Source of the DNA: Synaphobranchus kaupii
Taxonomy: Eukaryota; Chordata; Actinopteri; Anguilliformes; Synaphobranchidae
Reading direction: 5' to 3'
Assembly: GCA_029718625.1 (NCBI GenBank)
Contig: CM056389.1
Coordinates: 7,655,315-7,719,314, forward strand
Length of the DNA: 64,000 nucleotides
In this document: piece by piece, positions 1,996 through 36,410 of the stretch
How positions within the stretch are numbered: the stretch's first letter is position 1
How the letters are laid out: each line of letters starts with the position of its first letter
The notes under the pieces: generated by a model
Database searches by the model: none
What the model saw: the letters and a program-made list of their open reading frames with translations, nothing else
Told to the model about the DNA's origin: nothing
Translations under genes and position numbers: made by a program

Positions 1996-2040
1996 TGGGG
2001 TCTGTGATGGTGGAGGTTTGGGTTCAGCGTGAGGATGGGA

Positions 2041-2215: not shown

Positions 2216-2227
2216 TCTCGGAGGGAT

Positions 2228-2784: not shown

Positions 2785-3728
2785 TTTTATTATTTATTTA
2801 ACATAATCTTTATGCATTTTACTCAAAATAACTTTAAAAAATTATAATTTTTAAAAATTATTTTACTTAGGAAGTGTTATATGTTTCCCCAAATGCGACT
2901 GTTTTTTGGTGATTCAGACCTGCAACCTCCTGTTCACAAATCAAATTCCCTGGATTAATTCTTGCATGTTTTTTTTTCTGCAGGAAGAAGGAAGTTTATT
3001 TTTTCACTGTAAATTCCACTACTCAGCAATTCATTCCTGCTCTTTAGGAGGAGGAAGAAGAAGAAATCAAAAAGCATGAAAAAAAAAAAACTAAAAAAAG
3101 AAACGGGCAAAAGCACAAGCAGGCGCATTAAGAGTAGCAGTTCTGCTGAAACCACAACACAAACCGGTTTGTCCAGGGGAGACCGTGTTCCATTACGTGC
3201 ATGAGTGTAATCTATGTAGGCTGTGGAACCGTGAAGGCCTAGGGGGCGGCAGGATTTAAATGCTCCACACACCCTCCCCTTTGCCCCCTCCCAGGCAAAT
3301 CTGCTCCAAACCGGAGGGCAGAGTCCATGGATCAGCAGGCACTCTCAAAGTAGGTCAAAAGTAAGGCCCTGTGACTCAGTGCTGAGTTTGTGACAGGAGA
3401 CAGCCAGACCCTGGCAGGTAAAAGACTCCTGTGTCGTTTAGGAGCGCCCCCCCCCCCCACCACCACCACCACACTAGAACCACCCGGGTAACAGAATCAC
3501 GCTCTTGCAACATCATTCGGTTCAGGGGCAAAGTTGCAGTGCGTTGCCGTAGCGACGTAAAGTCAAAGGGACAAGGGTGTACCTGATGTGACTACACCGC
3601 AACGTTGCCTGGTTACAAATGCAAAAATTTCCTATGCAGCTCAACAAATGTCCTGGCAGCTTTCATTTTAAATCATGTAACAGCTTGACATGAATTAAGT
3701 GACTGAGATAAAAATGTGTGTGGTGGCG
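2785..3728. other. Unique, partly AT-rich sequence before the large array; no gene seen
   Basis: Contains an A/T-rich block (2800-2870), a GAA/A-rich run (3045-3110) and a C run followed by CAC triplets (3448-3470). Short open frames across the purine tract are low-complexity. No splice-flanked exon or promoter stands out. The array begins without a transition zone, next to GTGTGTGGTGGC at about 3718. Confidence 0.6.
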
Positions 3729-6700
3729 GTTAATAGCGGGCTCTATGCGATGGAGGTTAGTAGTGGGCTCTATGCGATGGAGGTTAATAGTGGGCTCTAT
3801 GTGATGGAGGTTAGTAGCGGGCTCTATGCGATGGTGGTTAGTAGCAGGCTCTATGCGATAGTGGTTAGTAGCGGGCTCTATGCGATGGTGGTTAGTAGTG
3901 GGCTCTATGTGATGGAGGTTAGTAGCGGGCTCTATGTGATGGAGGTTAGTAGTGGGCTCTATGTGATGGAGGTTAGTAGCGGGCTCTATGTGATGGAGGT
4001 TAGTAGTGGGCTCTATGTGATGGAGGTTAGTAGTGGGCTCTATGTGATGGAGGTTAGTAGCGGGCTCTATGCGATGGAGGTTAGTAGCGGGCTCTATGCG
4101 ATGGAGGTTAGTAGCGGGCTCTATGCGATGGAGGTTAGTAGTGGGCTCTATGCGATGGTGGTTAGTAGCGGGCTCTATGCGATGGAGGTTAGTAGTGGGC
4201 TCTATGCGATGGTGGTTAGTAGTGGGCTCTATGCGATGGAGGTTAGTAGTGGGCTCTATGCGATGGTGGTTAGTAGCGGGCTCTATGCGATGGAGGTTAG
4301 TAGCGGGCTCTATGTGATGGAGGTTAGTAGCGGGCTCTATGCGATAGTGGTTAGTAGCGGGCTCTATGTGATGGTGGTTAGTAGCGGGCTCTATGCGATA
4401 GTGGTTAGTAGCGGACTCTATGTGATGGTGGTTAGTAGCGGGCTCTATGTGATGGAGGTTAGTAGCGGGCTCTATGTGATGGAGGTTAGTAGCGGGCTCT
4501 ATGCGATAGTGGTTAGTAGTGGGCTCTATGTGATGGAGGTTAGTAGCGGGCTCTATGTGATGGAGGTTAGTAGTGGGCTCTATGTGATGGAGGTTAGTAG
4601 CGGGCTCTATGCGATGGCGGTTAGTAGCGGGCTCTATGTGATGGAGGTTAGTAGTGGGCTCTATGTGATGGAGGTTAGTAGCGGGCTCTATGTGATGGAG
4701 GTTAGTAGTGGGCTCTATGTGATGGAGGTTAGTAGCAGGCTCTATGTGATGGCGGTTAGTAGCGGGCTCTATGTGATGGAGGTTAGTAGTGGGCTCTATG
4801 TGATGGAGGTTAGTAGCAGGCTCTATGTGATGGCGGTTAGTAGCGGGCTCTATGTGATGGAGGTTAGTAGCGGGCTCTATGCGATGGAGGTTAGTAGTGG
4901 GCTCTATGTGATGGAGGTTAGTAGCGGGCTCTATGCGATGGAGGTTAGTAGTGGGCTCTATGCGATGGCGGTTAGTAGCGGGCTCTATGCGATGGAGGTT
5001 AGTAGCGGGCTCTATGTGATGGAGGTTAGTAGCGGGCTCTATGCGATGGAGGTTAGTAGTGGGCTCTATGCGATAGTGGTTAGTAGTGGGCTCTATGTGA
5101 TGGAGGTTAGTAGCGGGCTCTATGTGATGGAGGTTAGTAGTGGGCTCTATGTGATGGAGGTTAGTAGCGGGCTCTATGCGATGGCGGTTAGTAGCGGGCT
5201 CTATGTGATGGAGGTTAGTAGCGGGCTCTATGTGATGGAGGTTAGTAGCGGGCTCTATGCGATGGAGGTTAGTAGCGGGCTCTATGCGATGGAGGTTAGT
5301 AGTGGGCTCTATGTGATGGAGGTTAGTAGCGGGCTCTATGCGATAGTGGTTAGTAGCGGGCTCTATGTGATGGAGGTTAGTAGTGGGCTCTATGTGATGG
5401 AGGTTAGTAGTGGGCTCTATGTGATGGAGGTTAGTAGTGGGCTCTATGTGATGGAGGTTAGTAGTGGGCTCTATGTGATGGAGGTTAGTAGTGGGCTCTA
5501 TGTGATGGAGGTTAGTAGTGGGCTCTATGTGATGGAGGTTAGTAGTGGGCTCTATGTGATGGAGGTTAGTAGTGGGCTCTATGCGATGGAGGTTAGTAGT
5601 GGGCTCTATGCGATGGAGGTTAGTAGTGGGCTCTATGTGATGGAGGTTAGTAGTGGGCTCTATGCGATGGAGGTTAGTAGCGGGCTCTATGTGATGGTGG
5701 TTAGTAGCGGGCTCTATGTGATGGTGGTTAGTAGCGGGCTCTATGTGATGGAGGTTAGTAGCGGGCTCTATGTGATGGTGGTTAGTAGCGGGCTCTATGT
5801 GATGGTGGTTAGTAGCGGGCTCTATGTGATGGCGGTTAGTAGCGGGCTCTATGTGATGGCGGTTAGTAGCGGGCTCTATGTGATGGAGGTTAGTAGCGGG
5901 CTCTATGTGATGGAGGTTAGTAGTGGGCTCTATGCGATGGAGGTTAGTAGTGGGCTCTATGCGATGGTGGTTAGTAGCGGGCTCTATGTGATGGAGGTTA
6001 GTAGCGAGCTCTATGCGATAGTGGTTAGTAGCGGGCTCTATGTGATGGAGGTTAGTAGTGGGCTCTATGTGATGGAGGTTAGTAGTGGGCTCTATGTGAT
6101 GGAGGTTAGTAGTGGGCTCTATGTGATGGAGGTTAGTAGCGGGCTCTATGCGATGGAGGTTAGTAGCGGGCTCTATGTGATGGAGGTTAGTAGCGAGCTC
6201 TATGCGATAGTGGTTAGTAGCGGGCTCTATGTGATGGCAGTTAGTAGCGGGCTCTATGCGATGGAGGTTAGTAGCGGGCTCTATGCGATGGAGGTTAGTA
6301 GCGGGCTCTATGCGATGGAGGTTAGTAGCGGGCTCTATGCGATGGAGGTTAGTAGCGGGCTCTATGCGATGGAGGTTAGTAGTGGGCTCTATGCGATGGA
6401 GGTTAGTAGCGGGCTCTATGTGATGGTGGTTAGTAGCGGGCTCTATGTGATGGTGGTTAGTAGCGGGCTCTATGTGATGGAGGTTAGTAGCGGGCTCTAT
6501 GTGATGGTGGTTAGTAGCGGGCTCTATGCGATGGTGGTTAGTAGTGGGCTCTATGCGATGGAGGTTAGTAGCGGGCTCTATGTGATGGTGGTTAGTAGCG
6601 GGCTCTATGTGATGGAGGTTAGTAGTGGGCTCTATGCGATGGAGGTTAGTAGTGGGCTCTATGCGATGGTGGTTAGTAGCGGGCTCTATGCGATGGAGGT

Positions 6701-7659
6701 TAGTAGCGGGCTCTATGTGATGGAGGTTAGTAGCGGGCTCTATGCGATAGTGGTTAGTAGCGGGCTCTATGTGATGGCAGTTAGTAGCGGGCTCTATGCG
6801 ATGGAGGTTAGTAGCGGGCTCTATGCGATGGAGGTTAGTAGCGGGCTCTATGCGATGGAGGTTAGTAGCGGGCTCTATGCGATGGAGGTTAGTAGCGGGC
6901 TCTATGCGATGGAGGTTAGTAGCGGGCTCTATGCGATAGTGGTTAGTAGCGGGCTCTATGTGATGGTGGTTAGTAGCGGGCTCTATGTGATGGTGGTTAG
7001 TAGTGGGCTCTATGCGATGGAGGTTAGTAGCGGGCTCTATGCGATGGAGGTTAGTAGCGGGCTCTATGCGATGGAGGTTAGTAGCGGGCTCTATGCGATA
7101 GTGGTTAGTAGCGGGCTCTATGTGATGGTGGTTAGTAGCGGGCTCTATGCGATGGAGGTTAGTAGCGGGCTCTATGCGATAGTGGTTAGTAGCGGGCTCT
7201 ATGTGATGGAGGTTAGTAGCGGGCTCTATGTGATGGTGGTTAGTAGCGGGCTCTATGCGATAGTGGTTAGTAGCGGGCTCTATGTGATGGAGGTTAGTAG
7301 TGGGCTCTATGTGATGGAGGTTAGTAGTGGGCTCTATGCGATAGTGGTTAGTAGTGGGCTCTATGTGATGGTGGTTAGTAGCGGGCTCTATGTGATGGAG
7401 GTTAGTAGTGGGCTCTATGTGATGGAGGTTAGTAGCGGGCTCTATGCGATGGAGGTTAGTAGCGGGCTCTATGCGATAGTGGTTAGTAGCGGGCTCTATG
7501 CGATGGCGGTTAGTAGTGGGCTCTATGTGATGGAGGTTAGTAGCGGGCTCTATGTGATGGAGGTTAGTAGTGGGCTCTATGTGATGGAGGTTAGTAGCGG
7601 GCTCTATGCGATGGAGGTTAGTAGCGGGCTCTATGCGATAGTGGTTAGTAGCGGGCTCT

Positions 7660-9474
7660 ATGCGATGGCGGTTAGTAGTGGGCTCTATGCGATGGCGGTT
7701 AGTAGCGGGCTCTATGCGATGGCGGTTAGTAGCGGGCTCTATGCGATGGCGGTTAGTAGCGGGCTCTATGCGATGGCGGTTAGTAGCGGGCTCTATGCGA
7801 TGGCGGTTAGTAGCGGGCTCTATGCGATGGCGGTTAGTAGCGGGCTCTATGCGATGGCGGTTAGTAGCGGACTCTATGCGATGGAGGTTAGTAGCGGACT
7901 CTATGCGATGGTGGTTAGTAGTGGGCTCTATGTGATGGCGGTTAGTAGCGGGCTCTATGCAATGGCGGTTAATAGCGGGCTCTATGCGATGGCAGTTAGT
8001 AGCGGGCTCTATGCGATGGCGGTTAGTAGCGGGCTCTATGCGATGGCGGTTAGTAGTGGGCTCTATGTGATGGTGGTTAGTAGCGGGCTCTATGCGATGG
8101 AGGTTAGTAGCGGACTCTATGCGATGGTGGTTAGTAGCGGGCTCTATGCGATGGCGGTTAGTAGTGGGCTCTATGCGATGGCGGTTAATAGCGGGCTCTA
8201 TGCGATGGAGGTTAGTAGCGGGCTCTATGCGATGGCGGTTAGTAGCGGGCTCTATGCGATGGCGGTTAGTAGCGGGCTCTATGCGATGGCGGTTAGTAGC
8301 GGGCTCTATGCGATGGCGGTTAGTAGCGGGCTCTATGCGATGGAGGTTAGTAGCGGACTCTATGCGATGGCGGTTAATAGCGGGCTCTATGCGATGGCGG
8401 TTAATAGCGGGCTCTATGCGATGGCGGTTAGTAGCGGGCTCTATGCGATGGAGGTTAGTAGTGGGCTCTATGCGATGGCGGTTAGTAGCGGGCTCTATGC
8501 GATGGTGGTTAGTAGCGGGCTCTATGCGATGGAGGTTAGTAGCGGGCTCTATGCGATGGAGGTTAGTAGCGGGCTCTATGTGATGGAGGTTAGTAGCGGG
8601 CTCTATGCAATGGCGGTTAGTAGCGGGCTCTATGCGATGGAGGTTAGTAGCGGACTCTATGCGATGGCGGTTAATAGCGGGCTCTATGCGATGGCGGTTA
8701 GTAGCGGACTCTATGCGATGGCGGTTAATAGCGGGCTCTATGCGATGGCGGTTAATAGCGGGCTCTATGCGATGGCGGTTAGTAGCGGACTCTATGCGAT
8801 GGCGGTTAGTAGCGGACTCTATGCGATGGCGGTTAATAGCGGGCTCTATGCGATGGAGGTTAGTAGCGGGCTCTATGCGATGGTGGTTAGTAGCGGACTC
8901 TATGCGATGGAGGTTAGTAGCGGGCTCTATGCGATGGAGGTTAGTAGCGGACTCTATGCGATGGAGGTTAGTAGCGGGCTCTATGCGATGGAGGTTAGTA
9001 GCGGGCTCTATGCGATGGAGGTTAGTAGCGGGCTCTATGCGATGGTGGTTAGTAGCGGGCTCTATGCGATGGCGGTTAGTAGTGGGCTCTATGCGATGGC
9101 GGTTAGTAGTGGGCTCTATGCGATGGAGGTTAGTAGCGGGCTCTATGCGATGGCGGTTAGTAGTGGGCTCTATGCGATGGCGGTTAGTAGTGGGCTCTAT
9201 GCGATGGAGGTTAGTAGCGGGCTCTATGCGATGGCGGTTAGTAGCGGGCTCTATGCGATGGTGGTTAGTAGCGGGCTCTATGCGATGGCGGTTAGTAGTG
9301 GGCTCTATGCGATGGCGGTTAGTAGTGGGCTCTATGCGATGGCGGTTAGTAGCGGGCTCTATGCGATGGAGGTTAGTAGCGGGCTCTATGCGATGGTGGT
9401 TAGTAGTGGGCTCTATGCAATGGCGGTTAATAGTGGGCTCTATGCGATGGCGGTTAGTAGTGGGCTCTATGTGA
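7660..9474. repeat. Higher-order block A of the 27-bp array
   Basis: A CpG-rich run of units whose order of variants is repeated in blocks B (from 13741) and C (from 16036). Offset to B is 6075 bp at the left and 6102 bp at the right, so A has one 27-bp unit fewer. Near 8608 it shares with C (17005) a CpA variant (ATGCAATGG) that B lacks. Confidence 0.75.
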
Positions 9475-12400: not shown

Positions 12401-13740
12401 TAGCGGGCTCTATGCGATGGAGGTTAGTAGCGGGCTCTATGCGATGGTGGTTAGTAGCGGGCTCTATGCGATGGAGGTTAGTAGCAGGCTCTATGCGATG
12501 GAGGTTAGTAGCGGGCTCTATGCGATGGTGGTTAGTAGCGGGCTCTATGCGATGGTGGTTAGTAGCGGGCTCTATGCGATGGAGGTTAGTAGTGGGCTCT
12601 ATGCGATGGCGGTTAATAGCGGGCTCTATGCGATGGAGGTTAGTAGCGGGCTCTATGCGATGGAGGTTAGTAGCGGGCTCTATGCGATGGAGGTTAGTAG
12701 CGGGCTCTATGCGATGGAGGTTAGTAGCGGGCTCTATGCGATGGAGGTTAGTAGCGGGCTCTATGCGATGGTGGTTAGTAGTGGGCTCTATGTGATGGCA
12801 GTTAGTAGTGGGCTCTATGCGATGGAGGTTAGTAGTGGGCTCTATGCGATGGAGGTTAGTAGCGGGCTCTATGCGATGGTGGTTAGTAGTGGGCTCTATG
12901 CGATGGAGGTTAGTAGTGGGCTCTATGCGATGGCAGTTAGTAGCGGGCTCTATGTGATGGCAGTTAGTAGCGGGCTCTATGCGATGGAGGTTAGTAGCGG
13001 GCTCTATGTGATGGAGGTTAGTAGTGGGCTCTATGCGATGGAGGTTAGTAGTGGGCTCTATGCGATGGAGGTTAGTAGCGGGCTCTATGCGATGGAGGTT
13101 AGTAGTGGGCTCTATGCGATGGAGGTTAGTAGTGGGCTCTATGCGATGGAGGTTAGTAGCGGGCTCTATGCGATGGAGGTTAGTAGTGGGCTCTATGCGA
13201 TGGAGGTTAGTAGCGGGCTCTATGCGATGGAGGTTAGTAGCGGGCTCTATGTGATGGAGGTTAGTAGTGGGCTCTATGCGATGGAGGTTAGTAGTGGGCT
13301 CTATGCGATGGAGGTTAGTAGCGGGCTCTATGCGATGGAGGTTAGTAGTGGGCTCTATGCGATGGAGGTTAGTAGTGGGCTCTATGCGATGGAGGTTAGT
13401 AGCGGGCTCTATGCGATGGAGGTTAGTAGTGGGCTCTATGCGATGGAGGTTAGTAGCGGGCTCTATGCGATAGTGGTTAGTAGCAGGCTCTATGCGATGG
13501 CGGTTAGTAGCGGGCTCTATGCGATGGAGGTTAGTAGTGGGCTCTATGCGATGGAGGTTAGTAGCGGGCTCTATGCGATGGAGGTTAGTAGCGGGCTCTA
13601 TGCGATGGAGGTTAGTAGTGGGCTCTATGCGATGGAGGTTAGTAGCGGGCTCTATGCGATGGAGGTTAGTAGTGGGCTCTATGCGATGGAGGTTAGTAGT
13701 GGGCTCTATGCGATGGAGGTTAGTAGCGGGCTCTATGCGA

Positions 13741-16035
13741 TAGTGGTTAGTAGCAGGCTCTATGCGATGGCGGTTAGTAGCGGGCTCTATGCGATGGCGG
13801 TTAGTAGCGGGCTCTATGCGATGGCGGTTAGTAGCGGGCTCTATGCGATGGCGGTTAGTAGCGGGCTCTATGCGATGGCGGTTAGTAGCGGGCTCTATGC
13901 GATGGCGGTTAGTAGCGGGCTCTATGCGATGGCGGTTAGTAGCGGACTCTATGCGATGGAGGTTAGTAGCGGACTCTATGCGATGGTGGTTAGTAGTGGG
14001 CTCTATGTGATGGCGGTTAGTAGCGGGCTCTATGCAATGGCGGTTAATAGCGGGCTCTATGCGATGGCAGTTAGTAGCGGGCTCTATGCGATGGCGGTTA
14101 GTAGCGGGCTCTATGCGATGGCGGTTAGTAGTGGGCTCTATGTGATGGTGGTTAGTAGCGGGCTCTATGCGATGGAGGTTAGTAGCGGACTCTATGCGAT
14201 GGAGGTTAGTAGCGGACTCTATGCGATGGTGGTTAGTAGCGGGCTCTATGCGATGGCGGTTAGTAGTGGGCTCTATGCGATGGCGGTTAATAGCGGGCTC
14301 TATGCGATGGAGGTTAGTAGCGGGCTCTATGCGATGGCGGTTAGTAGCGGGCTCTATGCGATGGCGGTTAGTAGCGGGCTCTATGCGATGGCGGTTAGTA
14401 GCGGGCTCTATGCGATGGCGGTTAGTAGCGGGCTCTATGCGATGGAGGTTAGTAGCGGACTCTATGCGATGGCGGTTAATAGCGGGCTCTATGCGATGGC
14501 GGTTAATAGCGGGCTCTATGCGATGGCGGTTAGTAGCGGGCTCTATGCGATGGAGGTTAGTAGTGGGCTCTATGCGATGGCGGTTAGTAGCGGGCTCTAT
14601 GCGATGGTGGTTAGTAGCGGGCTCTATGCGATGGAGGTTAGTAGCGGGCTCTATGCGATGGAGGTTAGTAGCGGGCTCTATGTGATGGAGGTTAGTAGCG
14701 GGCTCTATGCGATGGCGGTTAGTAGCGGGCTCTATGCGATGGAGGTTAGTAGCGGACTCTATGCGATGGCGGTTAATAGCGGGCTCTATGCGATGGCGGT
14801 TAGTAGCGGACTCTATGCGATGGCGGTTAATAGCGGGCTCTATGCGATGGCGGTTAATAGCGGGCTCTATGCGATGGCGGTTAGTAGCGGACTCTATGCG
14901 ATGGCGGTTAGTAGCGGACTCTATGCGATGGCGGTTAATAGCGGGCTCTATGCGATGGAGGTTAGTAGCGGGCTCTATGCGATGGTGGTTAGTAGCGGAC
15001 TCTATGCGATGGAGGTTAGTAGCGGGCTCTATGCGATGGAGGTTAGTAGCGGACTCTATGCGATGGAGGTTAGTAGCGGGCTCTATGCGATGGAGGTTAG
15101 TAGCGGGCTCTATGCGATGGAGGTTAGTAGCGGGCTCTATGCGATGGTGGTTAGTAGCGGGCTCTATGCGATGGCGGTTAGTAGTGGGCTCTATGCGATG
15201 GCGGTTAGTAGTGGGCTCTATGCGATGGAGGTTAGTAGCGGGCTCTATGCGATGGCGGTTAGTAGTGGGCTCTATGCGATGGCGGTTAGTAGTGGGCTCT
15301 ATGCGATGGAGGTTAGTAGCGGGCTCTATGCGATGGCGGTTAGTAGCGGGCTCTATGCGATGGTGGTTAGTAGCGGGCTCTATGCGATGGCGGTTAGTAG
15401 TGGGCTCTATGCGATGGCGGTTAGTAGTGGGCTCTATGCGATGGCGGTTAGTAGCGGGCTCTATGCGATGGAGGTTAGTAGCGGGCTCTATGCGATGGTG
15501 GTTAGTAGTGGGCTCTATGCAATGGCGGTTAATAGTGGGCTCTATGCGATGGCGGTTAGTAGTGGGCTCTATGCGATGGAGGTTAGTAGCGGGCTCTATG
15601 TAATGGAGGTTAGTAGCGGACTCTATGCGATGGAGGTTAGTAGCGGGCTCTATGCGATGGAGGTTAGTAGCGGGCTCTATGCGATGGTGGTTAGTAGCGG
15701 GCTCTATGCGATGGAGGTTAGTAGCGGGCTCTATGCGATGGAGGTTAGTAGTGGGCTCTATGCGATGGTGGTTAGTAGCGGGCTCTATGCGATGGAGGTT
15801 AGTAGCAGGCTCTATGCGATGGAGGTTAGTAGCGGGCTCTATGCGATGGCGGTTAGTAGCGGGCTCTATGCGATGGTGGTTAGTAGCGGGCTCTATGCGA
15901 TGGAGGTTAGTAGCGGGCTCTATGTGATGGAGGTTAGTAGCGGGCTCTATGCGATGGAGGTTAGTAGCAGGCTCTATGCGATGGAGGTTAGTAGCGGACT
16001 CTATGCGATGGAGGTTAGTAGCGGGCTCTATGCGA
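13741..16035. repeat. Higher-order block B, 2295 bp (85 units)
   Basis: Every marker run here recurs 2295 bp later, for example 13762-14010 at 16057-16305, 14167-14685 at 16462-16980 and 15625-15927 at 17920-18222. 2295 = 85 x 27. The block is directly followed by its copy C. Differences between B and C are very few (a CpA at 17005 and another near 17741), so the duplication is recent or recently homogenised. Confidence 0.85.
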
Positions 16036-18330
16036 TAGTGGTTAGTAGCAGGCTCTATGCGATGGCGGTTAGTAGCGGGCTCTATGCGATGGCGGTTAGT
16101 AGCGGGCTCTATGCGATGGCGGTTAGTAGCGGGCTCTATGCGATGGCGGTTAGTAGCGGGCTCTATGCGATGGCGGTTAGTAGCGGGCTCTATGCGATGG
16201 CGGTTAGTAGCGGGCTCTATGCGATGGCGGTTAGTAGCGGACTCTATGCGATGGAGGTTAGTAGCGGACTCTATGCGATGGTGGTTAGTAGTGGGCTCTA
16301 TGTGATGGCGGTTAGTAGCGGGCTCTATGCAATGGCGGTTAATAGCGGGCTCTATGCGATGGCAGTTAGTAGCGGGCTCTATGCGATGGCGGTTAGTAGC
16401 GGGCTCTATGCGATGGCGGTTAGTAGTGGGCTCTATGTGATGGTGGTTAGTAGCGGGCTCTATGCGATGGAGGTTAGTAGCGGACTCTATGCGATGGAGG
16501 TTAGTAGCGGACTCTATGCGATGGTGGTTAGTAGCGGGCTCTATGCGATGGCGGTTAGTAGTGGGCTCTATGCGATGGCGGTTAATAGCGGGCTCTATGC
16601 GATGGAGGTTAGTAGCGGGCTCTATGCGATGGCGGTTAGTAGCGGGCTCTATGCGATGGCGGTTAGTAGCGGGCTCTATGCGATGGCGGTTAGTAGCGGG
16701 CTCTATGCGATGGCGGTTAGTAGCGGGCTCTATGCGATGGAGGTTAGTAGCGGACTCTATGCGATGGCGGTTAATAGCGGGCTCTATGCGATGGCGGTTA
16801 ATAGCGGGCTCTATGCGATGGCGGTTAGTAGCGGGCTCTATGCGATGGAGGTTAGTAGTGGGCTCTATGCGATGGCGGTTAGTAGCGGGCTCTATGCGAT
16901 GGTGGTTAGTAGCGGGCTCTATGCGATGGAGGTTAGTAGCGGGCTCTATGCGATGGAGGTTAGTAGCGGGCTCTATGTGATGGAGGTTAGTAGCGGGCTC
17001 TATGCAATGGCGGTTAGTAGCGGGCTCTATGCGATGGAGGTTAGTAGCGGACTCTATGCGATGGCGGTTAATAGCGGGCTCTATGCGATGGCGGTTAGTA
17101 GCGGACTCTATGCGATGGCGGTTAATAGCGGGCTCTATGCGATGGCGGTTAATAGCGGGCTCTATGCGATGGCGGTTAGTAGCGGACTCTATGCGATGGC
17201 GGTTAGTAGCGGACTCTATGCGATGGCGGTTAATAGCGGGCTCTATGCGATGGAGGTTAGTAGCGGGCTCTATGCGATGGTGGTTAGTAGCGGACTCTAT
17301 GCGATGGAGGTTAGTAGCGGGCTCTATGCGATGGAGGTTAGTAGCGGACTCTATGCGATGGAGGTTAGTAGCGGGCTCTATGCGATGGAGGTTAGTAGCG
17401 GGCTCTATGCGATGGAGGTTAGTAGCGGGCTCTATGCGATGGTGGTTAGTAGCGGGCTCTATGCGATGGCGGTTAGTAGTGGGCTCTATGCGATGGCGGT
17501 TAGTAGTGGGCTCTATGCGATGGAGGTTAGTAGCGGGCTCTATGCGATGGCGGTTAGTAGTGGGCTCTATGCGATGGCGGTTAGTAGTGGGCTCTATGCG
17601 ATGGAGGTTAGTAGCGGGCTCTATGCGATGGCGGTTAGTAGCGGGCTCTATGCGATGGTGGTTAGTAGCGGGCTCTATGCGATGGCGGTTAGTAGTGGGC
17701 TCTATGCGATGGCGGTTAGTAGTGGGCTCTATGCGATGGCAGTTAGTAGCGGGCTCTATGCGATGGAGGTTAGTAGCGGGCTCTATGCGATGGTGGTTAG
17801 TAGTGGGCTCTATGCAATGGCGGTTAATAGTGGGCTCTATGCGATGGCGGTTAGTAGTGGGCTCTATGCGATGGAGGTTAGTAGCGGGCTCTATGTAATG
17901 GAGGTTAGTAGCGGACTCTATGCGATGGAGGTTAGTAGCGGGCTCTATGCGATGGAGGTTAGTAGCGGGCTCTATGCGATGGTGGTTAGTAGCGGGCTCT
18001 ATGCGATGGAGGTTAGTAGCGGGCTCTATGCGATGGAGGTTAGTAGTGGGCTCTATGCGATGGTGGTTAGTAGCGGGCTCTATGCGATGGAGGTTAGTAG
18101 CAGGCTCTATGCGATGGAGGTTAGTAGCGGGCTCTATGCGATGGCGGTTAGTAGCGGGCTCTATGCGATGGTGGTTAGTAGCGGGCTCTATGCGATGGAG
18201 GTTAGTAGCGGGCTCTATGTGATGGAGGTTAGTAGCGGGCTCTATGCGATGGAGGTTAGTAGCAGGCTCTATGCGATGGAGGTTAGTAGCGGACTCTATG
18301 CGATGGAGGTTAGTAGCGGGCTCTATGTGA
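16036..18330. repeat. Higher-order block C, tandem copy of B
   Basis: Matches B at an offset of 2295 bp. The match stops near 18327, where B continues GCGATAGTGG and C continues GTGATGGTGG. The right part of C (about 17.75-18.8 kb) is found again about 3402 bp (126 units) further on, near 21.15-22.2 kb. Confidence 0.85.
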
Positions 18331-21300
18331 TGGTGGTTAGTAGTGGGCTCTATGCGATGGCGGTTAGTAGCGGGCTCTATGCGATGGCGGTTAATAGCGG
18401 GCTCTATGTGATGGAGGTTAGTAGCGGGCTCTATGCGATGGCGGTTAGTAGCAGGCTCTATGCGATGGCGGTTAGTAGCGGGCTCTATGCGATGGAGGTT
18501 AGTAGCGGGCTCTATGTGATGGTGGTTAGTAGTGGGCTCTATGCGATGGTGGTTAGTAGCGGGCTCTATGCGATGGCGGTTAGTAGCGGGCTCTATGCGA
18601 TGGCGGTTAGTAGCGGGCTCTATGCGATGGAGGTTAGTAGCAGGCTCTATGTGATGGAGGTTAGTAGCAGGCTCTATGCGATGGAGGTTAGTAGCGGGCT
18701 CTATGCGATGGAGGTTAGTAGCGGGCTCTATGCGATGGAGGTTAGTAGCGGACTCTATGCGATGGAGGTTAGTAGCGGGCTCTATGCGATGGAGGTTAGT
18801 AGCGGGCTCTATGTGATGGAGGTTAGTAGTGGGCTCTATGCGATGGAGGTTAGTAGCGGGCTCTATGCGATGGAGGTTAGTAGCGGGCTCTATGCGATGG
18901 TGGTTAGTAGCGGGCTCTATGTGATGGTGGTTAGTAGCGGGCTCTATGCGATGGAGGTTAGTAGTGGGCTCTATGTGATGGCGGTTAGTAGCGGGCTCTA
19001 TGTGATGGAGGTTAGTAGTGGGCTCTATGCGATGGAGGTTAGTAGCGGGCTCTATGCGATGGAGGTTAGTAGCGGGCTCTATGCGATGGTGGTTAGTAGC
19101 GGGCTCTATGTGATGGTGGTTAGTAGCGGGCTCTATGCGATGGAGGTTAGTAGCGGGCTCTATGTGATGGAGGTTAGTAGTGGGCTCTATGCGATGGAGG
19201 TTAGTAGTGGGCTCTATGTGATGGCGGTTAGTAGCGGGCTCTATGTGATGGAGGTTAGTAGTGGGCTCTATGCGATGGTGGTTAGTAGCGGGCTCTATGT
19301 GATGGAGGTTAGTAGCGGGCTCTATGCGATGGAGGTTAGTAGTGGGCTCTATGTGATGGAGGTTAGTAGTGGGCTCTATGTGATGGAGGTTAGTAGTGGG
19401 CTCTATGCGATGGAGGTTAGTAGCGGGCTCTATGCGATGGAGGTTAGTAGTGGGCTCTATGTGATGGAGGTTAGTAGTGGGCTCTATGCGATGGAGGTTA
19501 GTAGTGGGCTCTATGTGATGGAGGTTAGTAGTGGGCTCTATGCGATGGAGGTTAGTAGCAGGCTCTATGCGATGGAGGTTAGTAGCGGGCTCTATGCGAT
19601 GGTGGTTAGTAGCGGGCTCTATGTGATGGAGGTTAGTAGTGGGCTCTATGCGATGGTGGTTAGTAGCGGGCTCTATGTGATGGAGGTTAGTAGCGGGCTC
19701 TATGCGATGGAGGTTAGTAGCAGGCTCTATGCGATGGTGGTTAGTAGCGGGCTCTATGTGATGGAGGTTAGTAGTGGGCTCTATGCGATGGTGGTTAGTA
19801 GCGGGCTCTATGTGATGGCGGTTAGTAGCGGGCTCTATGCGATGGAGGTTAGTAGAGGGCTCTATGCGATGGAGGTTAGTAGTGGGCTCTATGCGATGGT
19901 GGTTAGTAGCAGGCTCTATGCGATGGAGGTTAGTAGTGGGCTCTATGCGATGGAGGTTAGTAGCGGGCTCTATGCGATGGAGGTTAGTAGCGGGCTCTAT
20001 GCGATGGAGGTTAGTAGCGGGCTCTATGCGATGGAGGTTAGTAGTGGGCTCTATGCGATGGTGGTTAGTAGCGGGCTCTATGCGATGGCGGTTACTAGCG
20101 GGCTCTATGTGATGGAGGTTAGTAGCGGGCTCTATGCGATGGCGGTTAGTAGCGGGCTCTATGTGATGGTGGTTAGTAGCGGGCTCTATGCGATGGCGGT
20201 TAGTAGTGGGCTCTATGTGATGGAGGTTAGTAGTGGGCTCTATGCGATGGAGGTTAGTAGCGGGCTCTATGCGATGGAGGTTAGTAGCGGGCTCTATGCG
20301 ATGGAGGTTAGTAGCGGGCTCTATGCGATGGAGGTTAGTAGTGGGCTCTATGCGATGGTGGTTAGTAGCGGGCTCTATGCGATGGCGGTTACTAGCGGGC
20401 TCTATGTGATGGAGGTTAGTAGCGGGCTCTATGCGATGGCGGTTAGTAGCGGGCTCTATGTGATGGAGGTTAGTAGTGGGCTCTATGCGATGGTGGTTAA
20501 TAGCGGGCTCTATGCGATGGTGGTTAATAGCGGGCTCTATGCGATGGTGGTTAGTAGTGGGCTCTATGCGATGGAGGTTAGTAGCGGGCTCTATGCGATG
20601 GTGGTTAGTAGCGGGCTCTATGTGATGGAGGTTAGTAGCGGGCTCTATGCGATGGAGGTTAGTAGCGGGCTCTATGCGATGGAGGTTTGTAGCGGGCTCT
20701 ATGCGATGGTGGTTAGTAGCGGGCTCTATGCGATGGAGGTTAGTAGCAGGCTCTATGCGATGGCGGTTAGTAGTGGGCTCTATGTGATGGTGGTTAATAG
20801 CGGGCTCTATGCGATGGTGGTTAATAGCGGGCTCTATGCGATGGTGGTTAGTAGTGGGCTCTATGCGATGGAGGTTAGTAGCGGGCTCTATGCGATGGTG
20901 GTTAGTAGTGGGCTCTATGCAATGGCGGTTAATAGTGGGCTCTATGCGATGGCGGTTAGTAGTGGGCTCTATGTGATGGAGGTTAGTAGCGGGCTCTATG
21001 TGATGGAGGTTAGTAGCGGGCTCTATGCGATGGAGGTTAGTAGCAGGCTCTATGCGATGGCGGTTAGTAGTGGGCTCTATGCGATGGTGGTTAATAGCGG
21101 GCTCTATGCGATGGTGGTTAATAGCGGGCTCTATGCGATGGTGGTTAGTAGTGGGCTCTATGCGATGGAGGTTAGTAGCGGGCTCTATGCGATGGTGGTT
21201 AGTAGTGGGCTCTATGCAATGGCGGTTAATAGTGGGCTCTATGCGATGGCGGTTAGTAGTGGGCTCTATGCGATGGAGGTTAGTAGCGGGCTCTATGTAA

Positions 21301-21624
21301 TGGAGGTTAGTAGCGGACTCTATGCGATGGAGGTTAGTAGCGGGCTCTATGCGATGGAGGTTAGTAGCGGGCTCTATGCGATGGTGGTTAGTAGCGGGCT
21401 CTATGCGATGGAGGTTAGTAGCGGGCTCTATGCGATGGAGGTTAGTAGTGGGCTCTATGCGATGGTGGTTAGTAGCGGGCTCTATGCGATGGAGGTTAGT
21501 AGCAGGCTCTATGCGATGGAGGTTAGTAGCGGGCTCTATGCGATGGCGGTTAGTAGCGGGCTCTATGCGATGGTGGTTAGTAGCGGGCTCTATGCGATGG
21601 AGGTTAGTAGCGGGCTCTATGTGA

Positions 21625-24600
21625 TGGAGGTTAGTAGCGGGCTCTATGCGATGGAGGTTAGTAGCAGGCTCTATGCGATGGAGGTTAGTAGCGGACTCTA
21701 TGCGATGGAGGTTAGTAGCGGGCTCTATGTGATGGTGGTTAGTAGTGGGCTCTATGCGATGGCGGTTAGTAGCGGGCTCTATGCGATGGCGGTTAATAGC
21801 GGGCTCTATGTGATGGAGGTTAGTAGCGGGCTCTATGCGATGGCGGTTAGTAGCAGGCTCTATGCGATGGCGGTTAGTAGCGGGCTCTATGCGATGGAGG
21901 TTAGTAGCGGGCTCTATGTGATGGTGGTTAGTAGTGGGCTCTATGCGATGGTGGTTAGTAGCGGGCTCTATGCGATGGCGGTTAGTAGCGGGCTCTATGC
22001 GATGGCGGTTAGTAGCGGGCTCTATGCGATGGAGGTTAGTAGCAGGCTCTATGTGATGGAGGTTAGTAGCAGGCTCTATGCGATGGAGGTTAGTAGCGGG
22101 CTCTATGCGATGGAGGTTAGTAGCGGGCTCTATGCGATGGAGGTTAGTAGCGGACTCTATGCGATGGAGGTTAGTAGCGGGCTCTATGCGATGGAGGTTA
22201 GTAGCGGGCTCTATGTGATGGAGGTTAGTAGTGGGCTCTATGTGATGGCGGTTCGTAGCGGGCTCTATGCGATGGAGGTTAGTAGCGGGCTCTATGTGAT
22301 GGCGGTTAGTAGCGGGCTCTATGTGATGGCGGTTAGTAGCGGGCTCTATGTGATGGAGGTTAGTAGTGGGCTCTATGCGATGGAGGTTAGTAGCGGGCTC
22401 TATGCGATGGAGGTTAGTAGCGGGCTCTATGCGATGGTGGTTAGTAGCGGGCTCTATGTGATGGTGGTTAGTAGCGGGCTCTATGCGATGGAGGTTAGTA
22501 GTGGGCTCTATGTGATGGCGGTTAGTAGCGGGCTCTATGTGATGGAGGTTAGTAGTGGGCTCTATGCGATGGTGGTTAGTAGCGGGCTCTATGTGATGGA
22601 GGTTAGTAGCGGGCTCTATGCGATGGAGGTTAGTAGTGGGCTCTATGTGATGGAGGTTAGTAGTGGGCTCTATGTGATGGAGGTTAGTAGTGGGCTCTAT
22701 GCGATGGAGGTTAGTAGCGGGCTCTATGCGATGGAGGTTAGTAGTGGGCTCTATGTGATGGAGGTTAGTAGTGGGCTCTATGCGATGGAGGTTAGTAGTG
22801 GGCTCTATGTGATGGAGGTTAGTAGTGGGCTCTATGCGATGGAGGTTAGTAGCAGGCTCTATGCGATGGAGGTTAGTAGCGGGCTCTATGCGATGGTGGT
22901 TAGTAGCGGGCTCTATGTGATGGAGGTTAGTAGTGGGCTCTATGCGATGGTGGTTAGTAGCGGGCTCTATGTGATGGAGGTTAGTAGCGGGCTCTATGCG
23001 ATGGAGGTTAGTAGCAGGCTCTATGCGATGGTGGTTAGTAGCGGGCTCTATGTGATGGAGGTTAGTAGTGGGCTCTATGCGATGGTGGTTAGTAGCGGGC
23101 TCTATGTGATGGCGGTTAGTAGCGGGCTCTATGCGATGGAGGTTAGTAGAGGGCTCTATGCGATGGAGGTTAGTAGTGGGCTCTATGCGATGGTGGTTAG
23201 TAGCAGGCTCTATGCGATGGAGGTTAGTAGTGGGCTCTATGCGATGGTGGTTAGTAGCGGGCTCTATGCGATGGAGGTTAGTAGCAGGCTCTATGCGATG
23301 GAGGTTAGTAGCGGGCTCTATGCGATGGCGGTTAGTAGCGGGCTCTATGCGATGGTGGTTAGTAGCGGGCTCTATGCGATGGAGGTTAGTAGCGGGCTCT
23401 ATGTGATGGAGGTTAGTAGCGGGCTCTATGCGATGGAGGTTAGTAGCAGGCTCTATGCGATGGAGGTTAGTAGCGGACTCTATGCGATGGAGGTTAGTAG
23501 CGGGCTCTATGTGATGGTGGTTAGTAGTGGGCTCTATGCGATGGCGGTTAGTAGCGGGCTCTATGCGATGGCGGTTAATAGCGGGCTCTATGTGATGGAG
23601 GTTAGTAGCGGGCTCTATGCGATGGCGGTTAGTAGCAGGCTCTATGCGATGGCGGTTAGTAGCGGGCTCTATGCGATGGAGGTTAGTAGCGGGCTCTATG
23701 TGATGGTGGTTAGTAGTGGGCTCTATGCGATGGTGGTTAGTAGCGGGCTCTATGCGATGGCGGTTAGTAGCGGGCTCTATGCGATGGCGGTTAGTAGCGG
23801 GCTCTATGCGATGGAGGTTAGTAGCAGGCTCTATGTGATGGAGGTTAGTAGCAGGCTCTATGCGATGGAGGTTAGTAGCGGGCTCTATGCGATGGAGGTT
23901 AGTAGCGGGCTCTATGCGATGGAGGTTAGTAGCGGACTCTATGCGATGGAGGTTAGTAGCGGGCTCTATGCGATGGAGGTTAGTAGCGGGCTCTATGTGA
24001 TGGAGGTTAGTAGTGGGCTCTATGTGATGGCGGTTCGTAGCGGGCTCTATGCGATGGAGGTTAGTAGCGGGCTCTATGTGATGGCGGTTAGTAGCGGGCT
24101 CTATGTGATGGCGGTTAGTAGCGGGCTCTATGTGATGGAGGTTAGTAGTGGGCTCTATGCGATGGAGGTTAGTAGCGGGCTCTATGCGATGGAGGTTAGT
24201 AGCGGGCTCTATGCGATGGTGGTTAGTAGCGGGCTCTATGTGATGGTGGTTAGTAGCGGGCTCTATGCGATGGAGGTTAGTAGTGGGCTCTATGTGATGG
24301 CGGTTAGTAGCGGGCTCTATGTGATGGAGGTTAGTAGTGGGCTCTATGCGATGGTGGTTAGTAGCGGGCTCTATGTGATGGAGGTTAGTAGCGGGCTCTA
24401 TGCGATGGAGGTTAGTAGTGGGCTCTATGTGATGGAGGTTAGTAGTGGGCTCTATGTGATGGAGGTTAGTAGTGGGCTCTATGCGATGGAGGTTAGTAGC
24501 GGGCTCTATGCGATGGAGGTTAGTAGTGGGCTCTATGTGATGGAGGTTAGTAGTGGGCTCTATGCGATGGAGGTTAGTAGTGGGCTCTATGTGATGGAGG

Positions 24601-25188
24601 TTAGTAGTGGGCTCTATGCGATGGAGGTTAGTAGCAGGCTCTATGCGATGGAGGTTAGTAGCGGGCTCTATGCGATGGTGGTTAGTAGCGGGCTCTATGT
24701 GATGGAGGTTAGTAGTGGGCTCTATGCGATGGTGGTTAGTAGCGGGCTCTATGTGATGGAGGTTAGTAGCGGGCTCTATGCGATGGAGGTTAGTAGCAGG
24801 CTCTATGCGATGGTGGTTAGTAGCGGGCTCTATGTGATGGAGGTTAGTAGTGGGCTCTATGCGATGGTGGTTAGTAGCGGGCTCTATGTGATGGCGGTTA
24901 GTAGCGGGCTCTATGCGATGGAGGTTAGTAGAGGGCTCTATGCGATGGAGGTTAGTAGTGGGCTCTATGCGATGGTGGTTAGTAGCAGGCTCTATGCGAT
25001 GGAGGTTAGTAGTGGGCTCTATGCGATGGAGGTTAGTAGCGGGCTCTATGCGATGGAGGTTAGTAGCGGGCTCTATGCGATGGAGGTTAGTAGCGGGCTC
25101 TATGCGATGGAGGTTAGTAGTGGGCTCTATGCGATGGTGGTTAGTAGCGGGCTCTATGCGATGGCGGTTACTAGCGGGCTCTATGTGA
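21625..25188. repeat. Tandem higher-order repeat of 1782 bp (66 units), about two copies
   Basis: Rare variants repeat at exactly 1782 bp: GTTCGTAGCGG at 22251 and 24033, and AGTAGAGGGC near 23149 and 24931. 1782 = 66 x 27. An older related copy lies upstream: AGTAGAGGGC also occurs near 19855, and 19837-20112 equals 24913-25188 (offset 5076 = 188 units). The upstream copy contains four more units, because its offset to the next copy changes from 3402 to 3294 bp. Confidence 0.8.
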
Positions 25189-28100
25189 TGGAGGTTAGTA
25201 GCGGGCTCTATGCGATGGCGGTTAGTAGCGGGCTCTATGTGATGGTGGTTAGTAGCGGGCTCTATGCGATGGCGGTTAGTAGTGGGCTCTATGTGATGGA
25301 GGTTAGTAGTGGGCTCTATGCGATGGAGGTTAGTAGCGGGCTCTATGCGATGGAGGTTAGTAGCGGGCTCTATGCGATGGAGGTTAGTAGCGGGCTCTAT
25401 GCGATGGAGGTTAGTAGTGGGCTCTATGCGATGGTGGTTAGTAGCGGGCTCTATGCGATGGCGGTTACTAGCGGGCTCTATGTGATGGAGGTTAGTAGCG
25501 GGCTCTATGCGATGGCGGTTAGTAGCGGGCTCTATGTGATGGAGGTTAGTAGTGGGCTCTATGTGATGGAGGTTAGTAGCGGGCTCTATGCGATGGTGGT
25601 TAGTAGCGGGCTCTATGTGATGGAGGTTAGTAGCGGGCTCTATGCGATGGAGGTTAGTAGTGGGCTCTATGTGATGGAGGTTAGTAGCGGGCTCTATGCG
25701 ATGGAGGTTAGTAGCAGGCTCTATGCGATGGCGGTTAGTAGTGGGCTCTATGCGATGGTGGTTAATAGCGGGCTCTATGCGATGGTGGTTAATAGCGGGC
25801 TCTATGCGATGGTGGTTAGTAGTGGGCTCTATGCGATGGAGGTTAGTAGCGGGCTCTATGCGATGGTGGTTAATAGCGGGCTCTATGCGATGGTGGTTAA
25901 TAGCGGGCTCTATGCGATGGTGGTTAATAGCGGGCTCTATGCGATGGAGGTTAGTAGTGGGCTCTATGTGATGGTGGTTAGTAGCGGGCTCTATGTGATG
26001 GAGGTTAGTAGCGGGCTCTATGCGATGGCGGTTAGTAGCGGGCTCTATGCGATGGTGGTTAGTAGCGGGCTCTATGCGATGGCGGTTAGTAGTGGGCTCT
26101 ATGCGATGGAGGTTAATAGCGGGCTCTATGCGATGGTGGTTAATAGCGGGCTCTATGCGATGGTGGTTAGTAGCGGGCTCTATGCGATGGCGGTTAGTAG
26201 CGGGCTCTATGCGATGGCGGTTAGTAGTGGGCTCTATGCGATGGTGGTTAATAGCGGGCTCTATGCGATGGTGGTTAATAGCGGGCTCTATGCGATGGTG
26301 GTTAGTAGCAGGCTCTATGCGATGGAGGTTAATAGCGGGCTCTATGCGATGGAGGTTAGTAGCGGGCTCTATGCGATGGAGGTTAGTAGCGGGCTCTATG
26401 CGATGGTGGTTAGTAGCAGGCTCTATGCGATGGAGGTTAGTAGCAGGCTCTATGCGATGGCGGTTAGTAGTGGGCTCTATGCGATGGTGGTTAGTAGCAG
26501 GCTCTATGCGATGGAGGTTAGTAGTGGGCTCTATGCGATGGAGGTTAGTAGTGGGCTCTATGCGATGGCGGTTAATAGCGGGCTCTATGCGATGGAGGTT
26601 AGTAGCGGGCTCTATGCGATGGAGGTTAGTAGTGGGCTCTATGCGATGGTGGTTAGTAGCGGGCTCTATGCGATGGAGGTTAGTAGTGGGCTCTATGTGA
26701 TGGCAGTTAGTAGTGGGCTCTATGCGATGGAGGTTAGTAGCGGGCTCTATGCGATGGAGGTTAGTAGCGGGCTCTATGCGATGGTGGTTAGTAGCGGGCT
26801 CTATGCGATGGTGGTTAGTAGTGGGCTCTATGTGATGGCAGTTAGTAGTGGGCTCTATGCGATGGAGGTTAGTAGTGGGCTCTATGCGATGGAGGTTAGT
26901 AGCGGGCTCTATGCGATGGAGGTTAGTAGTGGGCTCTATGCGATGGAGGTTAGTAGCGGGCTCTATGCGATGGAGGTTAGTAGTGGGCTCTATGTGATGG
27001 AGGTTAGTAGCGGGCTCTATGCGATGGAGGTTAGTAGCGGGCTCTATGTGATGGAGGTTAGTAGTGGGCTCTATGCGATGGAGGTTAGTAGCGGGCTCTA
27101 TGCGATGGAGGTTAATAGCGGGCTCTATGCGATGGCGGTTAGTAGTGGGCTCTATGCGATGGTGGTTAGTAGCAGGCTCTATGCGATGGAGGTTAGTAGT
27201 GGGCTCTATGCGATGGAGGTTAGTAGTGGGCTCTATGCGATGGAGGTTAGTAGCGGGCTCTATGCGATGGCGGTTAGTAGTGGGCTCTATGCGATGGTGG
27301 TTAGTAGCAGGCTCTATGCGATGGAGGTTAGTAGTGGGCTCTATGCGATGGCGGTTAGTAGTGGGCTCTATGCGATGGCGGTTAATAGCGGGCTCTATGC
27401 GATGGAGGTTAGTAGCAGGCTCTATGCGATGGAGGTTAGTAGCAGGCTCTATGAGATGGCGGTTAGTAGTGGGCTCTATGCGATGGCGGTTAGTAGTGGG
27501 CTCTATGCGATGGTGGTTAATAGCGGGCTCTATGCGATGGTGGTTAGTAGCGGGCTCTATGCGATGGCGGTTAGTAGCGGGCTCTATGCGATGGAGGTTA
27601 ATAGCGGGCTCTATGCGATGGCGGTTAGTAGCGGGCTCTATGCGATGGAGGTTAATAGCGGGCTCTATGCGATGGCGGTTAATAGCGGGCTCTATGCGAT
27701 GGAGGTTAGTAGCAGGCTCTATGCGATGGAGGTTAGTAGCGGGCTCTATGCGATGGAGGTTAGTAGCGGGCTCTATGTGATGGAGGTTAGTAGCGGGCTC
27801 TATGCGATGGCGGTTAGTAGTGGGCTCTATGCGATGGAGGTTAATAGCGGGCTCTATGCGATGGAGGTTAGTAGTGGGCTCTATGCGATGGCGGTTAGTA
27901 GCGGGCTCTATGCGATGGAGGTTAGTAGCGGGCACTATGCGATGGAGGTTAATAGCGGGCTCTATGCGATGGAGGTTAGTAGTGGGCTCTATGCGATGGA
28001 GGTTAGTAGTGGGCTCTATGCGATGGCGGTTAGTAGCGGGCTCTATGCGATGGAGGTTAATAGCGGGCTCTATGCGATGGAGGTTAGTAGCGGACTCTAT

Positions 28101-34100: not shown

Positions 34101-35723
34101 GTGGTTAGTAGCGGGCTCTATGCGATGGTGGTTAGTAGCGGGCTCTATGCGATGGTGGTTAGTAGCGGGCTCTATGCGATGGAGGTTAGTAGCGGGCTCT
34201 ATGCGATGGAGGTTAGTAGCAGGCTCTATGTGATGGAGGTTAGTAGCGGGCTCTATGCGATGGTGGTTAGTAGCGGGCTCTATGCGATGGAGGTTAGTAG
34301 CGGGCTCTATGCGATGGAGGTTAGTAGCGGGCTCTATGTGATGGAGGTTAGTAGCGGGCTCTATGCGATGGAGGTTAGTAGCGGGCTCTATGCGATGGCG
34401 GTTAGTAGCGGGCTCTATGTGATGGTGGTTAGTAGTGGGCTCTATGTGATGGAGGTTAGTAGCGGGCTCTATGTGATGGTGGTTAGTAGTGGGCTCTATG
34501 TGATGGAGGTTAGTAGCGGGCTCTATGTGATGGAGGTTAGTAGCGGGCTCTATGCGATGGAGGTTAGTAGCGGGCTCTATGTGATGGAGGTTAGTAGCGG
34601 GCTCTATGCGATGGCGGTTAGTAGCGGGCTCTATGCGATGGAGGTTAGTAGCGGGCTCTATGTGATGGAGGTTAGTAGTGGGCTCTATGTGATGGTGGTT
34701 AGTAGCGGGCTCTATGCGATGGAGGTTAGTAGCGGGCTCTATGCGATGGAGGTTAGTAGCGGGCTCTATGTGATGGAGGTTAGTAGCGGGCTCTATGTGA
34801 TGGAGGTTAGTAGTGGGCTCTATGTGATGGTGGTTAGTAGCGGGCTCTATGCGATGGAGGTTAGTAGCGGGCTCTATGCGATGGAGGTTAGTAGTGGGCT
34901 CTATGCGATGGCGGTTAGTAGCGGGCTCTATGTGATGGTGGTTAGTAGCGGGCTCTATGTGATGGTGGTTAGTAGCGGGCTCTATGCGATGGTGGTTAGT
35001 ATCGGGCTCTATGTGATGGTGGTTAGTAGTGGGCTCTATGTGATGGCGGTTAGTAGTGGGCTCTATGTGATGGAGGTTAGTAGCGGGCTCTATGCGATGG
35101 AGGTTAGTAGTGGGCTCTATGTGATGGCGGTTAGTAGTGGGCTCTATGTGATGGAGGTTAGTAGCGGGCTCTATGTGATGGAGGTTAGTAGTGGGCTCTA
35201 TGCGATGGAGGTTAGTAGCGGGCTCTATGCGATGGAGGTTAGTAGCGGGCTCTATGCGATGGAGGTTAGTAGCGGGCTCTATGCGATGGTGGTTAGTATC
35301 GGGCTCTATGTGATGGCGGTTAGTAGTGGGCTCTATGTGATGGAGGTTAGTAGCGGGCTCTATGCGATGGAGGTTAGTAGCGGGCTCTATGCGATAGTGG
35401 TTAGTAGTGGGCTCTATGTGATGGTGGTTAGTAGTGGGCTCTATGTGATGGAGGTTAGTAGCGGGCTCTATGTGATGGAGGTTAGTAGTGGGCTCTATGC
35501 GATGGAGGTTAGTAGCGGGCTCTATGCGATGGAGGTTAGTAGCGGGCTCTATGTGATGGCAGTTAGTAGTGGGCTCTATGTGATGGAGGTTAGTAGCGGG
35601 CTCTATGTGATGGAGGTTAGTAGCGGGCTCTATGCGATGGAGGTTAGTAGCGGGCTCTATGTGATGGCAGTTAGTAGCGGGCTCTATGTGATGGCGGTTA
35701 GTAGCGGGCTCCATGCGATTGCA

Positions 35724-36410
35724 GTTAATACGAACGGTATATCACATGCCTGAGCTCCGCTTGGCAAACCTGACATTTTTCTCCCGTGGGCGTGTGCAGT
35801 TTGAACAGCACGCTCTGATTGGATAGATATTACCACATGAGCTTCTGAATGTTCTGCATGCCTGTGGGAGCTGTGATAATGATGATGATGATGAGGATGA
35901 GGATGATAGCGTTATGGAAGCAGATAACGAGAGGAGTGACGGGGGAAAGCCGATGCCAGCACTGAAAGGGTGCTCTCTCTCTCTCACGAAAGAATGAGCG
36001 ATGGAGCCCTGCCAGGCCCATGGCGTGCGCTGCACATGTTTGAGTTGACTTTGAGTTACATCATTTCCAACGCGTGTGGCCTATGACTGGTGGCTGGTGT
36101 GCGTGTGTGTGTGATGGGGGCTGTGGGGGGGGGTATGGAAACAGCTGATTTGGCCGGCTGGGGATATTCAGCACACGCAGAATTTTATAAGGGAAATGTG
36201 GGTCTGATGACGTGGTCGTTTCTTAAAGTCACAGGACTGATATATCGGATTTTGGTGCGCCCGCGGCGCTGTCCACCACCCCGCACCCCGCCCCACCCCA
36301 TACAGTATAGCACAGTCATGGGCGTGGAGCAGAGCAGATCCGGTTTCTCCTCCTCTGGGAAGGAGCTCAGTCGGACACAACGCTGATATCCCTGCAGTTA
36401 CTCCTGCAGT
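35724..36410. other. Right flank of the macrosatellite; no gene seen
   Basis: The array ends in a slightly degenerate unit (CTCCATGCGATTGCAG) and passes into unique sequence. A GATGAT run lies at about 35876-35912 and a CTCT run near 35972. No exon with good splice sites was recognised. Confidence 0.6.

Follow-up and report, generated by a model that had tools for sequence, protein, structure and literature searches.

A 32-kb array of 1185 in-register 27-bp units in the genome of Synaphobranchus kaupii

Extent, register and coding potential of the array

The 64,000-nucleotide stretch of the Synaphobranchus kaupii genome analysed here (assembly GCA_029718625.1, contig CM056389.1, positions 7,655,315 to 7,719,314 of the forward strand; hereafter the window) contains a tandem array that occupies positions 3729–35723 of the plus strand. 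The array is composed of 1185 full 27-bp units with the consensus GTTAGTAGCGGGCTCTATGCGATGGAG. Cutting the sequence without gaps from position 3729 produces units that differ from the consensus by at most four bases each, belong to 54 types, the commonest of which is present 228 times, and contain no internal insertions or deletions (indels). The array is bordered on both sides by partial units, also on the plus strand. The 10-bp partial unit at the left edge (positions 3719–3728, TGTGGTGGCG) shows a single difference when compared with the last bases of the type that ends in TGTGATGGCG, and the 7-bp partial unit at the right edge (positions 35724–35730) reads GTTAATA. Beyond these seven unit-like bases, the sequence is unrelated to the unit.

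An earlier reading of the window, made from sequence only and hereafter called the sequence-only reading, described the array as 1185 units of 27 bp without a phase break, and the ungapped cut, Tandem Repeats Finder (TRF), a recount of the unit pattern, and a gapped alignment all agree with that description. TRF reported 1185.0 copies at positions 3724–35719, with 94% matches and 0% indels. The unit pattern, with up to three mismatches allowed, was matched 1185 times inside the array, always in register, and was found neither elsewhere in the window, nor on the opposite strand, nor in 100 shuffles. The wrap-around alignment, in which gaps were allowed, placed a single indel in the last, degenerate unit at position 35719. 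We take this indel as an edge effect, because a gapless reading of the same unit requires substitutions only.

Frames +0 and −0 contain no stops in the 10,665 codons of the array; the sequence-only reading had noted that the nine-residue period stays unbroken in both open frames. Frame +0 is open over 10,684 codons and reads as VSSGLYAME repeats. There are 396 stops in frame +1, a count that equals the sum of the 376 units with T at position 20 and the 20 units with A at position 24. The openness of +0 and −0 over the entire array, together with a length that stays a multiple of three, could indicate a giant repeat protein encoded in one of these frames, in which case selection on the frame would hold the phase. 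The joint openness of both strands is nevertheless explained by the letters of the unit, since no stop occurs in the unit and single changes seldom create one (3 of 81 in frame +0 and 1 of 81 in frame −0). The variants comprise 17 nonsynonymous and 5 synonymous kinds in frame +0, close to the available ratio of 62:16, and 19 nonsynonymous and 3 synonymous kinds in frame −0, against 60:20 available; purifying selection on the reading frame is thus indicated in neither frame. The opening 300 codons of frame +0, used as a protein query, gave no match at an E-value of 0.001 or better among the 7999 candidates sharing most words with it. The Pfam scan of 150 flanking open reading frames (ORFs), hand-picked from the 218 of at least 60 residues, identified no host gene, a result that short exons would escape. 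The array shows no sign of coding and is apparently non-coding; its interpretation as a coding sequence was rejected because of the variant spectrum and the want of proteins homologous to frame +0 among the candidates scored, and we regard a giant repeat protein as extremely improbable.

Unit variants and duplicated blocks

The 1185 units carry 1502 variant bases in total. Ten common kinds of substitution, where a kind is defined by the unit position and the base, are present in 17 to 376 units each and affect positions 5, 9, 10, 12, 20, 21, 24, 26 (two kinds), and 27. The rare kinds, found in one to four units each when the terminal unit is set aside, are T2G, T3C, A4C, A4T, G5C, G8T, C9A, G11A, T14A, and C20A. 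The variants are centred on CpG sites. Transitions at the CpG positions 9, 10, 20, 21, and 27 make up 800 of the 1502 variant bases, or 1048 if T at position 26 is counted as a decayed C, and the C found at position 26 provides another 280 variant bases, of which decay is not the source. The cytosines at positions 13 and 15, which are not part of a CpG, are invariant in 1184 units. The ratio of observed to expected CpG reaches 1.07 within the array, compared with 0.61 in the remaining window. We infer that the unit variants derive largely from methyl-CpG decay in the germ line, which presupposes that the array is methylated there. The decay is skewed, with 927 TG against 109 CA over sites 9–10, 20–21, and 26–27, and 679 against 87 when site 26, where T may derive from A, is left out of the count. 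The skew could result from drift through copying or from strand-asymmetric deamination.

The order of the unit types records duplications of whole blocks of units. The longest exact repeats in the unit order are 66, 47, 45, 39, and 36 units long, compared with four to seven units in 20 shuffles. At a lag of 85 units, units 370–454 (positions 13719–16013) match units 455–539 (positions 16014–18308) with two base differences in 2295 bp, and at a lag of 66 units, units 656–721 (positions 21441–23222) match units 722–787 (positions 23223–25004) without a difference in 1782 bp; these and all other blocks are on the plus strand. The length of the match equals the lag in both cases, and the two copies are therefore exactly adjacent, as a single-step tandem duplication leaves them.

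Additional block pairs may be the remains of older duplications. The 50-unit block of units 162–211 (positions 8103–9452) has copies at positions 14205–15554 and 16500–17849, with one base difference to each, and within the same region units 147–241 align with units 372–452 at lags of 225, 226, 212, and 211 units. We read these copies as the remnant of an older duplication that spanned about 226 units. The 39-unit block of units 520–558 (positions 17769–18821) is copied at positions 21171–22223 and the segment 19200–20468 at positions 24276–25544, both without base differences, and units 520–599 align with units 646–721 at lags of 126, 121, 124, and 122 units, which is consistent with a second older duplication of about 122–126 units. 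The alignments of the older blocks were made on the unit grid, so that their gaps are whole units by construction. The six block pairs, which comprise 337 partly overlapping unit pairs, differ by four bases, each of which falls on the guanine of a CpG, at position 21 or 27. Several rare variants are placed as block copying predicts; for example, C9A is found in units 597, 719, and 785. In units 180, 406, and 491, which correspond to one another in three copies of one block, the CpG position 21 is occupied by A in two copies and by G in the copy between them. This G may be a back-change or the product of a small conversion.

Short steps are recorded alongside the long ones. Identical units at lags of one to six units occur 1030 times, compared with 755 (standard deviation 22) when the units are shuffled within 50-unit bins, and none of 500 shuffles reached 1030. 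The excess is strong in units 0–450 and 850–1185. The listed blocks are all located within units 147–919, and no large blocks were found at the two ends of the array, where the unit-level alignments score 9.1 and 12.0, compared with 131.9–158.3 in the interior.

Because adjacent duplications, remnants of older blocks, and more short steps than in shuffles all appear in the map of unit types, growth by whole-unit steps, both small and large, is directly visible in the block-bearing stretches. The claim of the sequence-only reading that length changed through whole units thus stands on the adjacent 85- and 66-unit duplications and the gapped older remains, and not on the phase from which it had been drawn. 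Its further claim, that the changes came from unequal exchange or conversion and not from slippage, loses that basis, because whole-unit slippage or template switching keeps the phase as well, and either sister-chromatid exchange or replication-based copying may have acted. Growth mostly by whole-unit slippage or template switching, and not by exchange between chromatids, is possible, but we consider it the less likely course. The surplus of identical units at lags of one to six is in its favour, as is the suggestion that short duplications arise by slippage and long ones by exchange or conversion (PMC2897807). The 66- and 85-unit blocks, of 1.8 and 2.3 kb, are in our judgement long for slippage, but not for break-induced copying.

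The array is very probably a large, young, GC-rich minisatellite, or variable number tandem repeat (VNTR), that is apparently non-coding and has grown by copying whole units in register, guided by homology. Some growth steps would have added from one to several units and others blocks of tens of units, with block sizes of at least 85 units and probably of about 124 and 226 units. The clean adjacent duplications would be products of unequal sister-chromatid exchange, or of repair or replication that re-entered the array out of register. The variants created by CpG decay may have been spread by the same copying that enlarged the array, and the perfect phase would reflect homology-guided copying combined with little time for small indels. 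The kind of copying, the neutrality of the array, its youth in absolute terms, and a difference in its length between individuals are elements of this account that we infer.

Several observations weigh against this account of a young minisatellite. It is based on one assembled sequence, and errors of assembly could account for the exact 1.8- and 2.3-kb duplications. The short-lag excess is weak in units 450–850, where 252 identical units compare with 221 (standard deviation 12) after shuffling, a count reached by 4 of 500 shuffles. The listed blocks span 531 of the 1185 units, so that more than half of the array is without a readable block history, and some of the older alignments end in diverged units (nine units with five base differences and eleven units with two). 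Unless it was produced by drift, the skew between TG and CA departs from equal decay on both strands. Assemblers may over-copy or collapse 32-kb arrays, and the phase or part of the length could accordingly be an artefact of assembly or polishing. Heavy smoothing, however, should have removed the 54 unit types, the length variants of 1 and 2 bp in neighbouring arrays, and the CpG differences between blocks, all of which persist, and we consider such an artefact unlikely.

Absence of indels and comparison with neighbouring arrays

The main array contains no kinds of indel and 22 kinds of substitution, about ten of which are rare and outside CpG decay. Seven neighbouring arrays, analysed with their unrefined TRF consensus units, together contain 8 kinds of indel and 42 kinds of substitution; they were chosen from the other arrays listed by TRF after exclusion of those at 1390–1990, 43740, 49115, 58265, and 58597 and of short or simple repeats. 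The contrast has a Fisher P-value of 0.096, or 0.050 if nine kinds of indel are counted in the neighbours, where kinds are not independent mutation events. The main array was picked for being striking, and the comparison is thus post hoc.

The small indels that the sequence-only reading had ascribed to neighbouring arrays were found in those at positions 1–634, 2488–2784, and 41927–42832. One extra G is present in six units of the 30-bp array, and the same 2-bp CT insertion is present in seven units of the 37-bp array at 41927–42832, where this length variant seems to have spread between units. Homopolymer runs were considered as the source of the neighbours' indels and account for them in part, since the extra G adjoins a GG run but the CT insertion, in our reading, fits no run. 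Gapped alignment bore out the statement that the neighbouring 41-bp array is free of indels. Three of the seven, the 41-, 32-, and 34-bp arrays, are phase-perfect, but they contain four, one, and zero kinds of substitution, respectively, and are hence little informative. An interval of 198 codons between stops, at positions 40828–41424, overlaps the end of the 41-bp array.

The probability of finding no indels depends on the number of comparable substitution events. For assumed indel-to-substitution ratios of 0.07–0.2, it is 0.11–0.46 with 11 events, 0.05–0.35 with 15 events, and 0.007–0.17 with 25 events. The absence of indels from the main array is not clearly unusual, because the rare non-CpG kinds of variant are few and homology-guided copying keeps the phase. 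Youth is enough to explain it, unless the true events well exceed the number of kinds. Out-of-phase units could alternatively arise and be lost again, if mismatch-sensitive exchange rejected units of 26 or 28 bp and the array held its own phase. The ratio of 0 to 22 kinds against 8 to 42 in the seven neighbours, and the low probabilities obtained with 25 events, would agree with such active removal. The contrast is weak, however, the probabilities obtained with 11 events are unremarkable, and two neighbouring arrays hold one length variant in six and seven units, so that units of altered length do spread nearby. We therefore consider active removal very unlikely. We give even less credence to a broader version, in which the register is kept by more than youth: the array would be a CpG-dense, germ-line-methylated 32-kb block, perhaps transcribed with an exposed strand, with which the TG:CA skew of 927 to 109 would agree, and exchange in it would reject out-of-phase units. 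If true, the array would offer a natural record of how a vertebrate minisatellite strictly controls its register.

Relatives of the unit and flanking sequences

A GC-rich unit with strand asymmetry is a feature of GC-rich minisatellites. The array has a GC content of 0.534, a modest difference from the 0.493 of the remaining window, and the plus strand of the unit consensus contains eleven G and four C. The tandem units of minisatellites measure about 9–100 bp (PMC2599865), a range that includes the 27-bp unit repeated 1185 times here. Furthermore, the 54 interspersed unit types, the blocks, and the short-lag excess are in keeping with the reshuffling of variants through duplication or conversion of whole units. 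Satellite DNA, by comparison, consists of many arrays of one unit, often centromeric or heterochromatic; within the window, no further copy of the unit was found at up to three mismatches. The array is of the same kind as human minisatellites.

The human minisatellite MS32 (D1S8) has a GC-rich unit, of 29 bp, and its arrays are described as a succession of repeats that vary in sequence (PMC3510502). Length mutants of MS32 have been described, and its alleles in one cell line contain 54, 106, and 126 repeats (PMC3510502), compared with 1185 units here. MS32 has a recombination hotspot beside one end, whereas no end polarity is visible in the array described here, because its block duplications were found at units 147–919. 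A human 30-mer VNTR with unit variants and 100–3000 copies belongs to the same size class as the array (PMC10502081), but it differs in sequence, species, and locus, and population data exist for it, whereas the array was analysed in a single assembly. The 25-mer VNTR of human ABCA7 has a similar unit length and extends over many kilobases, although at about 10 kb it is shorter than the array (PMC6857246, PMC10502081). The human Y-chromosomal MSY1 is likewise an array of variant units, for which sister-chromatid gene conversion was proposed as the mechanism (PMC2599865). The MSY1 unit is AT-rich and forms hairpins (PMC2599865), whereas four folded stretches of the array had a lower stability than their own shuffles had on average (z 0.47 to 1.81). 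Human arrays longer than 10 kb include ones with 17-, 20-, and 27-bp periods of diverged CCTTG repeats (PMC2588610).

When positions 9 and 20 were allowed to be C or T, the unit had no exact match in viral, bacterial, and archaeal contigs, in collections without fish genomes. None of six pieces of the unit was found in the literature text searched, and no 27-bp fish satellite or minisatellite was named in the titles or abstract starts of papers that matched a search for one. Within these collections and this literature, the unit matches no described family, in line with the sequence-only reading, which knew of none. The 54 types distributed over 1185 units form a readable growth record of a very long minisatellite. 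The 66- and 85-unit duplications have been kept with zero and two base differences, so that a single sequence suffices to infer step sizes. The array does not require a new mechanism. It could be used to mark the locus and to test the assembly of long minisatellites.

Possible relatives of the unit were also sought inside the window. The 30/31-bp array at positions 1–634 starts at the first base of the window and is therefore probably longer. A cyclic alignment of the 27-bp unit with the 30-bp unit has a score of 21; 2 of 300 shuffles that kept mononucleotide composition scored as high, as did 54 of 3000 dinucleotide shuffles. As one of 20 comparisons (ten units, both strands), this result is suggestive at most of a common origin of the two arrays, and a distant kinship is possible. 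Derivation from the GTTAGC-like arrays at positions 1603–1990 is unsupported, since the plus-strand score was reached by 224 of 300 shuffles for A27b and by 7 of 60 for A80. When two joined copies of the unit were locally aligned with both flanks, none of the four comparisons exceeded the best of 20 shuffles, and exact 12-base words common to the unit and the flanks occur at positions 54836–54837 of the minus strand and nowhere else.

The Pfam scan of the flanks (positions 36087–64000 or 847–3344) identified the domains HTH_SB, HTH_Tnp_Tc3_2, and DDE_3, which are transposase domains of the Sleeping Beauty/Tc type. The ORF that encodes them was not located by Pfam rescans of 20 of the 150 ORFs one by one, or by a motif search. 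A weak Fumerase match in the flanking ORFs (E 0.0067) was taken as chance. The Rfam matches are in keeping with vertebrate and, through UnaL2, with teleost DNA; they include two UnaL2 LINE 3′ elements on opposite strands, at positions 52418–52472 and 56278–56331, and a mir-22 microRNA precursor at positions 62303–62390 with a score of 84.6 bits.

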